Assembly: GCA_027080315.1 (NCBI GenBank)
Contig: JALWSI010000059.1
Coordinates: 1-26,947, forward strand
Direction: 5' to 3'
Source of the DNA: a bacterium
Lineage (GTDB): Bacteria; Thermosulfidibacterota; Thermosulfidibacteria; Thermosulfidibacterales; JALWSI01
DNA: 26,947 bases
Positions 5,584 through 23,450 of this stretch are shown in pieces (the stretch's first letter is position 1; each line of letters opens with the position of its first letter). The translations under genes and the position numbers were made by a program. Below the pieces are notes generated by a model that searched no databases, had not been told where the DNA came from, and saw nothing but the letters and a program-made list of their open reading frames with translations.

Positions 5584-5659
5584 GGGCGGTTAGCTCAGGT
5601 GGGAGAGCACTACCTTCGCACGGTAGGGGTCGCCAGTTCGAATCTGGCACCGTCCACCA
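5584..5659 (+). tRNA. tRNA-Ala, anticodon CGC
   Basis: A 76-nt cloverleaf. The acceptor GGGCGGT pairs with ACCGTCC and includes the G3-U70 wobble that identifies alanine tRNAs. The D arm is GCTC/GAGC, the anticodon stem CTACC/GGTAG with loop TTCGCAC (anticodon CGC, reads GCG), and the T arm GCCAG/CTGGC with loop TTCGAAT. The discriminator base is A and CCA is encoded. First of two tandem tRNAs, 5 nt before tRNA-Val. Confidence 0.97.
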
Positions 5660-5664
5660 TATAA

Positions 5665-5740
5665 GGGCGATTAGCTCAGATGGGAGAGCGCTCCCCTCAC
5701 ACGGGAGAGGTCACAGGTTCAAATCCTGTATCGCCCACCA
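5665..5740 (+). tRNA. tRNA-Val, anticodon CAC
   Basis: A 76-nt cloverleaf. The acceptor GGGCGAT pairs perfectly with ATCGCCC, with discriminator A and encoded CCA. The anticodon stem is CTCCC/GGGAG with loop CTCACAC, giving anticodon CAC (reads GUG). The T arm is ACAGG/CCTGT with loop TTCAAAT. It probably shares the promoter at 5528 with tRNA-Ala. No terminator is seen before the next small gene, 27 nt away. Confidence 0.97.
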
Positions 5741-8579: not shown

Positions 8580-9296
8580 ATGCCTGTACTATTAGGTGTG
8601 AACATAGACCACGTGGCCACAGTTAGAGAGGCCAGAGGAGGAAGAGAGCCAGAGCCCATAGCTGCAGCCCTTCTCGCTGAGCTGGGAGGAGCAGACGGAA
8701 TAACCGTACACCTCAGGGGAGATAGGAGGCACATAAAAGAGAGGGATCTCTTCATGCTAAAGGATATTATAGCCACAAAGCTGAACTTGGAGATGGCTGC
8801 AACCCCTGAGATGGTGGGCATATCCAAAAAGCTGAAACCCTATTCTTGTACTTTGGTGCCAGAGGAGCCAGGAGAACTCACCACACAGGGGGGCCTTGAC
8901 GTGATCTCCCATCAGGATCACCTGAAAGAGGTGATAAAAGAGCTGAAAGAGCAGGGAATCGTGGTGAGCATCTTTATTGATGCAGACTCTGCTCAGATAA
9001 AGGCCGCTAAGGCTATAGGAGCCGATTTTATTGAGATACACACAGGGGTCTATGCTGAAGCAGAGACAGAGAAAGAGCAAGAGGAGGAGCTGCAACGCAT
9101 AATAGAAGCCGCCCGTTTAGCCCAGAACATTGGTCTAAGGGTGAATGCGGGACACGGACTGAACTACCAGAACGTGAGGCCCATTGCCCAGATTCCAGGC
9201 TTAGTGGAGCTCAACATAGGACACAGCATAATATCAAGAGCGGTTCTGGTGGGAATAGAGAGAGCTGTGCGGGACATGAAGGCGCTTCTACAATGA
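8580..9296 (+). CDS. pdxJ: pyridoxine 5'-phosphate synthase
   Basis: Final ring-closing step of the DXP-dependent vitamin B6 pathway: 1-deoxyxylulose-5-phosphate plus 3-amino-1-hydroxyacetone phosphate gives pyridoxine phosphate. 238 residues, full length. The family signature [17 protein letters not shown] starts at residue 5. Other markers are [37 protein letters not shown] and [12 protein letters not shown], spread along the TIM barrel as in E. coli PdxJ. A strong AAGGAGGT site precedes ATG 8580. The stop overlaps the pgpA start (ATGA). The glmM-pdxJ pairing is common in Deltaproteobacteria-type genomes (from memory). Confidence 0.98.
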
Positions 9297-19683: not shown

Positions 19684-20394
19684 CTAAGGCAGTCGTCTTA
19701 TGGGCTTTATGAGTCTGGTGGACACAAAGTGTCTGCCCGGCACAAGGGGAATGGGAATCTCAAAATGCCTAACAAAGGGAGCTGCCTGCACCCCGGTGAT
19801 CTCAATGTCACTAAGCTCAGGAGTGACAAAGAACCACTTCTGAACCAAGGGCGAGAAGGGAGCGGCAAAGAGGTACGAGACCACCGCAGCAATCACCACC
19901 CCAAATGGGCTGAAGAACCGCAGGAAGAACATGAGCACCAGCATAATGAGAAAGAGCATGAAACCGCTGGTCATGTTGGCGGTGGCACATCCCCTGTGCA
20001 CCATGAGGGCATGGTCCCCTGAAAGCACCCGTTTCCTACCCCTCTGCGCCGCCTCCATAATGGCATCGGGGCTCATGATACCCTCAGGAAGATTAACATA
20101 GAACCCCACCTCCTGAGCCATGCCCTTGGGTCGTGAGCTTATCCCCTCCTCCTCCAAGATGTTCAGGGTGGCATGGCAGAGGGCATGGTTCTTTCTCAGC
20201 CTTGGATCACGCCACAGGTTCCACAGATGCCTCGGCAACTCCCACCATCCTCCCATTGAGAAGAGCACAAACTCGTAAGAGAAGAGCATGATGCTAATCA
20301 GTAAGAGAAGAGGGATCAGTATCCAGAAGAGAGGATTGAAGAGGATCAGCATGAGAATAACAAGGCACGAGAACGGGAACCAGAGCTCAAGCAC
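19684..20394 (-). CDS. uncharacterised integral membrane protein with HALxHATLN motif (DUF6391-like)
   Basis: 236 residues from GTG 20394. That start has GGAGG six bases upstream and overlaps the preceding stop by 8 nt; a TTG at 20412 would place this ribosome site inside the gene. Two membrane segments near residues 6-38 form a hairpin, and hydrophobic segments lie near 139-180. Between them, KNHALCHATLNILEEEG (about 69-85) and SGDHALMVHRGCATAN (about 125-140) give conserved-looking His, Cys and Asn residues next to the membrane. The first motif recalls the DUF6391 family, whose function is unknown. The C-terminal tail (about 190-236) is soluble and basic. Its place after a phospholipid-type transferase suggests a membrane-linked role only by context. 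Confidence 0.8.
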   Translation of the reverse strand: MLELWFPFSCLVILMLILFNPLFWILIPLLLLISIMLFSYEFVLFSMGGWWELPRHLWNLWRDPRLRKNHALCHATLNILEEEGISSRPKGMAQEVGFYVNLPEGIMSPDAIMEAAQRGRKRVLSGDHALMVHRGCATANMTSGFMLFLIMLVLMFFLRFFSPFGVVIAAVVSYLFAAPFSPLVQKWFFVTPELSDIEITGVQAAPFVRHFEIPIPLVPGRHFVSTRLIKPIRRLP

Positions 20395-20980
20395 CGGTAT
20401 CCTCCCTCTCAAGCATGGCCTTGGTGTGAAGAATACGCTGGATTGCAGTCACATTGGCAAAAACAGCAACCAAGATCACTGCCCACCACAAAAAGCCCAG
20501 CAAGGCCCCTGCAATGAGCATAATCACCCGCTCGGGGCGCTCTGCTATACCCACCTGGCACTGAGGTATCAGGCTCTCGGCCCGGGCCCTTGTGTAGCTA
20601 ACCATCACAGAGCCCAGAAGGGCCAGAAAGGCCGCAACGAAAAGGCCGATACTCTTCAAAGAGCACGCCTGGTAAAGCAATCCACCGTAGATGAAGATGT
20701 CCGAGTACCTGTCCACTGTGGAGTCAAGAAAGGCCCCAAAGGGAGAAGCCTGATTGGTCACCCGGGCGATCCCTCCGTCCAAACAGTCGCACAATCCCGC
20801 TGCTATGAGCACCACCCCAGCCCAGCGGTTGTATCCAGTTGCAAATAGAAGACCGCCAGCTGCACTTAAAATGGCCCCTGCCACTGTGAGGTGGTTGGGT
20901 GTAATCCCAAAGTCTGCCATCTTTTTGGCCACAGGCTGAAAGAGCGGAGAGAAGATATCCCTGTACCTGCTTGACAGCAT
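20387..20980 (-). CDS. CDP-alcohol phosphatidyltransferase (PIP-synthase/PgsA-like)
   Basis: Integral-membrane enzyme that moves a phosphatidyl group from CDP-diacylglycerol to an alcohol. 197 residues with about six membrane segments. The full signature D65-x2-D68-G69-x2-A72-R73-x8-G82-x3-D86-x3-D90 is intact (CDCLDGGIARVTNQASPFGA, then FLDSTVD). SYTRARAE in the third quarter and the ITPNHLTVAG start resemble phosphatidylinositol-phosphate synthases and archaetidylinositol-phosphate synthases more than glycerol-phosphate PgsA, so an inositol-phosphate acceptor is a reasonable guess. GGAG lies six bases before the ATG. Three nt separate it from speE; it overlaps the next gene by 8 nt. Confidence 0.9.
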   Translation of the reverse strand: MLSSRYRDIFSPLFQPVAKKMADFGITPNHLTVAGAILSAAGGLLFATGYNRWAGVVLIAAGLCDCLDGGIARVTNQASPFGAFLDSTVDRYSDIFIYGGLLYQACSLKSIGLFVAAFLALLGSVMVSYTRARAESLIPQCQVGIAERPERVIMLIAGALLGFLWWAVILVAVFANVTAIQRILHTKAMLEREDTGA

Positions 20981-20983
20981 AGG

Positions 20984-21853
20984 CTACTCCACCATCTCTT
21001 CCACGTAACGGGGAAGGGCCAGGGCGGCTTTATGGAGAGAAGGGGTGTAGTAGCGAAGGGTACCCTTCAGTCCCTCAAGGGGACGACTGGGACCATGGGC
21101 GGGATCAGGCCCAAGGGAACCCAAGGTGAAGCTCCAGGGTCCTCCGTAGGCAGGCACAGAAGAGAGGTATGAGCAGCTTATGGGGAAGAGCTCCTTAAAG
21201 ATAGCCGCCACCTGCCTCAAAACCTCAGGCTGAAACAGGGGAGACCCTGACTGCACCGCAATAACCCCCTTCTCCCTAAGAACCCGTCTGCACTGGCTGT
21301 AGAACTCTTTTTTGAACAGCCCCTCTGCCGGGCCAATGGGATCGGTGGAATCAACTAAGATCACATCAAAGGAGCCATCAGGTGCGTTGCCCACGTAAGA
21401 GATGCCATCACCCACCACCACCGTGGCCCTGGGGTCTGAGAATCCCGAGGCAAGCTCAGGAAGAAAGCGCCTGCTCACCTCCATCACCTCTGAATCTATC
21501 TCCACCTGCACCGCCTCTTCCACACAGGGGTGTCTCAGCACCTCTCTCAGGGTGCCTCCGTCGCCCCCACCAATGATGAGCACCCTTTTGGGCTTGGCAT
21601 GGGTGAACATGGGCAGGTGCACCAGCATCTCGTGGTATCCACACTCGTCTCTCTCGGTGAGCATGGTCATACCGTCAAGCACCAGCACCTTTCCAAAGCT
21701 CTCGCTCTCAAACAGGTCAATCTGCTGGTACTCGCTCTCCCCCGAATAGAGGGTCTGGCGAATACGAAAGGCTATGCGCCAGCCCTTGTCAAAGGGCTCG
21801 GTGTACCAGAGATCGGTGGCCCTTTTAGGAGCAGCAGCGGGGATCAATCCCAT
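20984..21853 (-). CDS. speE: polyamine aminopropyltransferase (spermidine synthase family)
   Basis: Transfers aminopropyl from decarboxylated SAM to a di- or polyamine. 289 residues. The N-terminal strand domain has [14 protein letters not shown] (37-50) and [18 protein letters not shown] (53-70). The cofactor loop GGGDGG is at 95-100, and the catalytic segment [14 protein letters not shown] (167-180) carries D168 and D171. The C-terminal region has [14 protein letters not shown]. The start overlaps pdaD by 10 nt with no good ribosome site. The operon encodes arginine decarboxylase but no agmatinase, so agmatine is a possible natural acceptor in place of putrescine. Motifs alone do not settle the substrate. 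Confidence 0.95.
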
Positions 21854-22311
21854 AACACCACCGCGGCGAAGGCGGTGCCTATCTTCTCTACCACGTGTTC
21901 CACCGCCACGCTTTTCAACCTCTTTATCTCCTTGCCCCTCATGCGCATACCCTCTTCAGCCATCCTGCGCACCGTCTCTTCAATCTCCTCCTTGGGGCCC
22001 GGAGCGGCGTACTCCATAATGAGGGCAGCGTGGTCTTCGTCGGTGGGAAATGCAGCAGCCACCCCTGCGCTTATCCTCTCTCCAGAGGTTGAAGAGGTTA
22101 TGCTGGCGTAGGCAACGGGCACCAGCGCACCCTGGGGCAGGGGTACAGGATCAATCTCTTTGCAGTGAGGGGGAATGATGCTGCTCATCTTCACCAGATT
22201 GGTGTTACCTATCCCCGCATCCAGCAGGGCCCCGTCAAAGGAGTTGAGGGGAGAGAACCCCTCCGATCTGCCCTTCACAAAGAAGAATGTGGTGGGCATG
22301 GTGAAGATCAT
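21844..22311 (-). CDS. pdaD: pyruvoyl-dependent arginine decarboxylase
   Basis: Makes agmatine from arginine using a covalently bound pyruvoyl group. 155 residues, the size expected for the archaeal-type proenzyme. The self-cleavage site is in [11 protein letters not shown], between S43 and S44; S44 becomes the pyruvoyl. [15 protein letters not shown] and the [19 protein letters not shown] stretch are family hallmarks, and [13 protein letters not shown] follows. The ATG overlaps the speD stop (ATGA) and has AGGAGG six bases upstream. The type is common in archaea and scattered in bacteria. Together with speD and speE it gives a short arginine route to polyamines that needs no PLP. Confidence 0.95.
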
Positions 22312-22709
22312 CGCATACCTCCTGCAGCAGCAACGGGCTTGTAGTTAAGCTCTTCAACATGGTGAAGCTGTCCCCGCCTCATCTCCATGGTGAACATGGT
22401 CTCTGCCTTCAACGCCTCTTTGAGATACTCAAAGGCTATCCAGGGGTCCACAGAGTCTCCGCAGGTGAAGAGATCCACCGCGGCGTACTGGTACTCTGGC
22501 CAGGTGTGTATGGCCAGATGCGACTCTGCTATCACCACCACCCCGCTTACTCCATGGGGGTTGAACAGGTGAAAAACGCTCTCCACAATGGTGGCACCAC
22601 TGTTAAGGGCCGCCTCTTTCATGGACCGCTCAATGAGCTCAACGGAGTTCAGGCGGTCTCTATCGCATCCATAAAACTCAACCAACACATGCCTTCCCAG
22701 TGATTTCAT
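22308..22709 (-). CDS. speD: S-adenosylmethionine decarboxylase proenzyme
   Basis: Pyruvoyl enzyme that makes decarboxylated SAM, the aminopropyl donor for SpeE. 133 residues from ATG 22709, chosen because AAAGGAG lies six bases upstream; an ATG at 22730 adds seven residues without a ribosome site. The self-cleavage site is E62/S63 in [12 protein letters not shown], with H68 and C83 (LFTCG) as the partner residues, the same spacing as the Thermotoga maritima enzyme. It is 59 nt downstream of the regulator gene and couples to pdaD by ATGA. Two pyruvoyl decarboxylases in a row make the pathway PLP-independent. Confidence 0.97.
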
Positions 22710-22735
22710 CTTCTTCTCCTTTCCATTCACCAGCG

Positions 22736-22749
22736 TTGACCTGGGTCAA
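22736..22749 (-). promoter_or_regulatory. palindrome in the speD leader
   Basis: TTGACC and GGTCAA are inverted repeats separated by 2 bp, 27 nt before the speD ATG and 19 nt after the regulator stop. It could be an operator or just spacer; it does not match the AAACG/CGTTT sites at the operon promoter. Confidence 0.25.
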
Positions 22750-22768
22750 GCCTGGGTTGGTGCCAAGT

Positions 22769-23299
22769 TTAGTAGGTCACCATGATCAGCACTGCCTCTT
22801 CCTCGCTTCTGTTCTCAAGGGTGAACTCGTTGTCAGGAAAGAGATATATCACGTCCTCCTCCCCTACCTTGATCTCCTCACCGTTCACCCTTAGCCATAG
22901 CTCTCCTTTAAGCAGGTAGCCAAAGATCTCTTCGTCATCAAAATCATCGCTTGTAAGCACCCCTTTAGAGGCTATGACCACATAGTAGGGATCCAACTCC
23001 CTGTATTGGATGTCAGGGGTGAGGAGCATTCTTCTCACCCCCGCAATATCCTCCTCAGCAAGTTCTCGCTCTTCTTTTCTGAACACATTGCGTTCGGGCA
23101 CCTCTATGTCTTGAAAGAAGGAGCTTATGTCTTCGCCCATCACGTCAAGCACCTGCTTCAGGGCCGCAACCGAAGGGGAGGCCTTGTCCCTCTCCACCTG
23201 AGAGAGAAACCCCTTGGTCAGATTGGCCCTGTTTGCAAGCTCCTCTAAGGTGAGGGCCTTTGACTTTCTCAACCTTCTCAGCTTCTTGCCTATCTCCAC
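22769..23299 (-). CDS. XRE-family regulator with cupin sensor domain (polyamine operon)
   Basis: 176 residues. Residues 1-60 are a Cro/CI-type helix-turn-helix (KLRRLRKSKALTLEELANRA, then LTKGFLSQVERDKASPSV). Residues about 105-176 are a cupin barrel ending GEEDVIYLFPDNEFTLENRS. This is the architecture of PuuR-like and related small-ligand regulators; a polyamine ligand is a natural guess because the gene heads the speD-pdaD-speE operon. The start is GTG 23299 with GAAGGTG five bases upstream. It is likely autoregulated: its promoter (23374-23402) overlaps one AAACG/CGTTT inverted repeat and precedes a second. Repressor versus activator is inferred from the site position. Confidence 0.92.
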   Translation of the reverse strand: MEIGKKLRRLRKSKALTLEELANRANLTKGFLSQVERDKASPSVAALKQVLDVMGEDISSFFQDIEVPERNVFRKEERELAEEDIAGVRRMLLTPDIQYRELDPYYVVIASKGVLTSDDFDDEEIFGYLLKGELWLRVNGEEIKVGEEDVIYLFPDNEFTLENRSEEEAVLIMVTY

Positions 23300-23338
23300 T
23301 TCGGCACCTTCTTTCTAAACTTTTCCCTTACCTATCAA

Positions 23339-23352
23339 ACAAAACGTTTTGT
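23339..23352. promoter_or_regulatory. operator-like palindrome O2 (ACAAAACGTTTTGT)
   Basis: A 14-bp perfect palindrome in the leader of the regulator gene, about 15 bp past the expected start of transcription. It shares the AAACG/CGTTT half-sites with O1, whose centre is about 22 bp away, close to two helical turns. Confidence 0.6.
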
Positions 23353-23361
23353 CGCATTTGG

Positions 23362-23374
23362 AAACGGAGCGTTT
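23362..23374. promoter_or_regulatory. operator-like inverted repeat O1 (AAACG-N3-CGTTT)
   Basis: Five-base half-sites around GAG lie directly over the expected start of transcription and touch the -10 element of the regulator promoter. A protein bound here should block initiation. Confidence 0.55.
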
Positions 23375-23402
23375 TTCTACGTATAAAGGTGGGGGTTGTC
23401 AA
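23374..23402 (-). promoter_or_regulatory. sigma70-type promoter of the regulator-polyamine operon
   Basis: On the minus strand, perfect TTGACA (23402-23397), a 17-bp spacer and TAGAAA (23379-23374). Transcription should begin near 23367, giving a leader of about 68 nt before GTG 23299. It is the only convincing promoter in the 151-bp gap before the seven-gene operon. Confidence 0.65.
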
Positions 23403-23450
23403 CAGGGTGGGATAAAAAATTTTTGGGGAGTTTTTATAGGAGGGAATATC

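Follow-up and report, generated by a model that had tools for sequence, protein, structure and literature searches.

A Thermosulfidibacterales arginine-to-spermidine operon with a candidate speB gene on a separate contig

Introduction

How is arginine converted to spermidine by a bacterium whose polyamine operon carries no ureohydrolase gene? The question was raised by a locus in a window of 26,947 nucleotides, which is the whole stretch of DNA that was analysed. The initial annotation described a regulator of the XRE-cupin type followed by speD, pdaD, and speE, with neither agmatinase nor agmatine deiminase, and raised the question whether SpeE uses agmatine, by which the operon would be a self-contained, PLP-free aminopropylagmatine module. 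The analysis reported here points instead to an ordinary bacterial arginine-to-spermidine operon, in which the step that looks missing is encoded on another contig and the pathway has no gap (probability of roughly 0.9).

Results

Organization of the operon

The genes of the XRE-cupin regulator, SpeD, PdaD, and SpeE were grouped on the minus strand from 23299 down to 20984, at the positions given in the initial annotation (Table 1). SpeE, PdaD, and SpeD were tested against the curated cut-offs of Pfam and NCBIfam, and the scores lay above them. The two pyruvoyl decarboxylase genes and speE overlapped, as had been described, by 4 nt between speD and pdaD and by 10 nt between pdaD and speE. The regulator most resembled PuuR among the NCBIfam models, with a score of 54 bits that was far under the cut-off of 211. 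The sequence elements of the candidate promoter/operator region were common to the window and its relatives, as judged by eye from the upstream sequences.

Table 1. Features of the polyamine locus in the window
Feature	Position	Strand	Evidence
XRE-cupin regulator, first operon gene	22769..23299	-	HTH_3 37.5 bits, Cupin_2 34.8 bits
speD, pyruvoyl S-adenosylmethionine decarboxylase (class 1b)	22308..22709	-	PF02675 150 bits; SAM_DCase_Bsu 156 (cut-off 76)
pdaD, pyruvoyl-dependent arginine decarboxylase	21844..22311	-	PF01862 157 bits; TIGR00286 168 (cut-off 107)
speE, aminopropyltransferase (spermidine synthase)	20984..21853	-	PF01564 203 bits; NCBIfam speE TIGR00417 302 (cut-off 250)
CDP-alcohol phosphatidyltransferase gene	20387..20980	-	PF01066 65 bits
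Candidate promoter/operator region upstream of the XRE gene	23300..23450	-	TTGACA box and AAAACG/GTTTA-type repeats

The CDP-alcohol phosphatidyltransferase gene, which is outside the polyamine pathway, began 3 nt past speE, and therefore the transcript probably continues into it, beyond the end given earlier. Against the archaetidylinositol phosphate synthase model, which has a cut-off of 180, its product reached 180.3 bits. The window also contained LptD and heptosyltransferase genes, which pointed to a Gram-negative-type bacterium despite that score. Neighbouring tRNA-Ala(CGC) and tRNA-Val(CAC) genes were located at 5584-5740 of the window.

The arrangement of the operon is not a matter of chance. 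The gene order XRE-speD-pdaD was kept in all eight other genomes of the same bacterial order. The longer arrangement, XRE-speD-pdaD-speE-CDP-alcohol phosphatidyltransferase, was found in seven of these eight relatives, and the contig of the eighth (G008) stopped inside pdaD.

The two decarboxylases and the available routes

The open frame of speD started with a GTG codon at 22730. The ATG codon at 22709 was preferred as the start because the product from this codon aligned colinearly with T. maritima AdoMetDC (PDB code 1tlu) from residue 1. The alignment showed the two proteins to be very close, and SpeD contained the equivalents of Ser63, His68, and Cys83, the residues of self-processing and catalysis, by which it fits the class 1b AdoMet decarboxylases. 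For neofunctionalised SpeD-type arginine or ornithine decarboxylases, marker residues have been published (PMC10407285). PdaD was colinear with the solved PvlArgDC structures (PDB codes 1n2m and 2qqd) and retained the SSIIPP serine cleavage motif and the IMEY motif. Its score above the curated cut-off and the internal serine cleavage motif placed it among the pyruvoyl-dependent arginine decarboxylases.

The term PLP-free was appropriate for both decarboxylases, but no sign of PLP scarcity accompanied it, with pdxJ in the window (8580-9296) and a PLP-dependent LysA in the genome. From pdxJ, the organism appears to make its own PLP. Searches of the genome with PF02784 and PF01276 revealed no arginine or ornithine decarboxylase of the PLP type. 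The single PF02784 protein, encoded directly before dapF, was considered as a hidden ornithine decarboxylase and rejected, as it reads as LysA. PF01276 gave no match above its cut-off in the genome and one below it, at 17.6 bits. The absence of agmatine deiminase was borne out by a PF04371 search of the 94% complete assembly. With an arginine decarboxylase alone, two step orders remain, one via putrescine and the other via N1-aminopropylagmatine.

A ureohydrolase on another contig

The claimed absence of an agmatinase was correct for the operon and incorrect for the genome. In the genome of the window (G000; 253 contigs, 94% complete, so that a further enzyme could be missed), the ureohydrolase search gave a single PF00491 match on contig C171 (G000:C171:418-1197, 243 bits, E 2.6e-72). 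The protein (L001:391-1242) was intact-looking, with 283 residues, and contained H106, D129, H131, D133, D208, and D210, which correspond to the six Mn ligands of arginase. The PF00491 match and all six ligands identified it as a ureohydrolase, a family that also takes in guanidinobutyrase, guanidinopropionase, and others. Its grouping with other ureohydrolases and its gene neighbourhood, described below, suggest that it acts on agmatine or on N1-aminopropylagmatine. The genome thus has a clear enzyme of the agmatinase family outside the operon, one of the two observations that the initial annotation had named as together refuting its proposal.

A scan of named genomes, from which 80 SpeE loci were kept, gave the usual neighbourhood of such genes. 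The pdaD gene occurred in 21 of the 80 loci, and speB adjoined speE in 19 of these 21; the order was pdaD-speE-speB in 18 and speE-speB-pdaD in one (L084). The pdaD-speE-speB clusters of Heliorestis acidaminivorans (L119), Ca. Desulfopertinax cowenii (L083), a Deltaproteobacteria MAG (L080), and a Thermotogae MAG (L095) resemble the present system in their enzymes and in the sequence of the genes. An XRE-type regulator and speD, as in the window, are likewise present in L080 and L095, the two loci with the full XRE-speD-pdaD-speE-speB arrangement. In contrast to these clusters, the speB of the window's genome was on a different contig, and the operon ran into the CDP-alcohol phosphatidyltransferase gene. 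The genomes of L081, L082, and L131, for which no completeness was given, yielded no ureohydrolase.

Phylogenetic analysis of 70 ureohydrolases placed the six proteins from the window's order in a group of 45 with a support of 94/87, in a tree whose bootstrap was not fully settled. The rest of the group consisted of 37 speE-linked proteins and two others. Because of this grouping with speE-linked SpeB and the usual pdaD-speE-speB neighbourhood, the C171 gene looks like the operon's own speB, located elsewhere.

The position of speB was shared within the order. In G000, G001, G002, and G003, speB lay directly after a related membrane-protein gene, presumably of the DUF21/CBS type, and therefore the new position is common to families of the order. 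In four genomes of the order, speB overlapped the end of this gene (L069:391-1254 and 1239-2516). Three relatives (G004, G006, and G007) were without speB in the initial search. In G007, one end of speB was found at a contig end, adjoining the same membrane-protein neighbour. In G006, contig C130 (4301 nt) broke off within the gene found ahead of speB elsewhere, and in G004, a genome only 71% complete, no ureohydrolase was found. True loss of speB was considered for these relatives but not supported, on account of the contig ends and of the low completeness of G004. Agmatine deiminase as a substitute was not found in G004 or G006.

The aminopropyltransferase

One PF01564 match was present in G000, and the product of speE was thus the sole aminopropyltransferase found. 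SpeE was 43% identical both to its best PDB match, 1iy9, and to 1inl, which we take to be the SpeE of B. subtilis and T. maritima, respectively. The closest match in the scan of named genomes had 49% identity. Residues Tyr73, Asp98, Asp168, Asp171, and Tyr236 were present, and the catalytic and diamine-site residues were largely identical to those of 1iy9 and 1inl; together with the family score, they placed the protein among the spermidine synthases. This likeness to both structures therefore does not decide between agmatine and putrescine. The second observation named in the initial annotation, pocket residues of a putrescine-specific type, gives no verdict either, because the published comparison of such enzymes detects no motif that would tell the activities apart (PMC11107197).

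Compared with 1iy9, SpeE was one residue shorter in the loop after Tyr236 and had DSTDP in place of DSTEP. The deletion beside the pocket residue Tyr236 was order-wide: Y-G-G, where Y-P-S-G or a similar sequence is found elsewhere, occurred in all eight SpeE proteins of the order that were compared (the window, L015, L017, L018, L019, L020, L022, and L024). The motif was not found in the other 86 SpeE sequences of the set, a few of which were truncated or redundant.

Discussion

The enzymes of the operon would act in a familiar sequence. PdaD would decarboxylate arginine to agmatine, SpeD would decarboxylate S-adenosylmethionine, SpeE would transfer the aminopropyl group, and SpeB, from another contig, would remove urea. 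The operon genes are presumably co-transcribed, and the distant speB would serve the same pathway, lying apart from the operon in the window's order whereas in other bacteria it usually adjoins speE. Since either route needs this distant speB, the operon cannot be called self-contained.

The aminopropyl transfer and the removal of urea could follow one another in either order. Of 18 bacterial spermidine synthases tested, 17 aminopropylate agmatine to give N1-aminopropylagmatine, and the species concerned mostly encode arginine decarboxylases only (PMC11107197). The use of agmatine by the SpeE of the window is plausible because only an arginine decarboxylase was found and because so many of the tested enzymes accept agmatine; it was already proposed in PMC11107197 and is not new. 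The B. subtilis enzyme, with which SpeE shares its catalytic residues, and the T. maritima enzyme are both among those that make N1-aminopropylagmatine (PMC11107197). By this analogy, SpeE probably acts as an N1-aminopropylagmatine synthase as well. Thermus thermophilus and Thermococcus kodakarensis, which have an N1-aminopropylagmatine pathway, likewise process agmatine with an aminopropyltransferase and a ureohydrolase of the agmatinase family (PMC11107197), although agmatine use by the SpeE of the window is putative and the comparison is based on gene content. The step order from agmatine through aminopropylagmatine to spermidine, followed wholly or partly, is somewhat favoured.

In the classical route, the ureohydrolase would be an agmatinase giving putrescine, from which SpeE would make spermidine. 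The match of the SpeE catalytic and diamine-site residues to those of the spermidine synthases from T. maritima and B. subtilis is consistent with this, as is the putative agmatinase that was the best PDB match of the ureohydrolase. However, both synthases also aminopropylate agmatine (PMC11107197), and 'putative agmatinase' is an annotation only. The classical route has rather less than an even chance.

An obligate aminopropylagmatine route would be a finer version of the main reading and is no alternative to a relocated speB. SpeE would be specialised for agmatine, the distant ureohydrolase would be an N1-aminopropylagmatinase, and putrescine would never be made. Such a route would fit an organism in which an arginine decarboxylase but no ornithine decarboxylase was found, and most bacterial SpeE proteins accept agmatine (PMC11107197). 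In their common arrangement, pdaD-speE-speB, the genes parallel the order of the steps, although gene order is weak evidence. The change from Y-P-S-G to Y-G-G, seen in the order's eight proteins and in no other examined, may also speak for it. Against it, almost every such enzyme that has been published can turn putrescine into spermidine as well, and no sequence motif separates the agmatine and putrescine activities (PMC11107197). The obligate route is therefore less likely than not. An order-wide specialisation of SpeE for agmatine, for which the loop deletion might be responsible, with spermidine formed only via N1-aminopropylagmatine and never through putrescine, is unlikely.

A self-contained aminopropylagmatine module with no ureohydrolase or deiminase serving the pathway, as suggested by an operon without the former and a genome without the latter, is very improbable and is refuted at the genome level by the intact ureohydrolase that groups with speE-linked SpeB in the same genome.

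The locus calls for caution, in that a gene absent from an operon had been read as an enzyme absent from the organism. For bacteria in which agmatine is derived from arginine, the aminopropylagmatine route has been proposed as the default one (PMC11107197), and if SpeE prefers agmatine, the organism described here would add one more lineage to that proposal.
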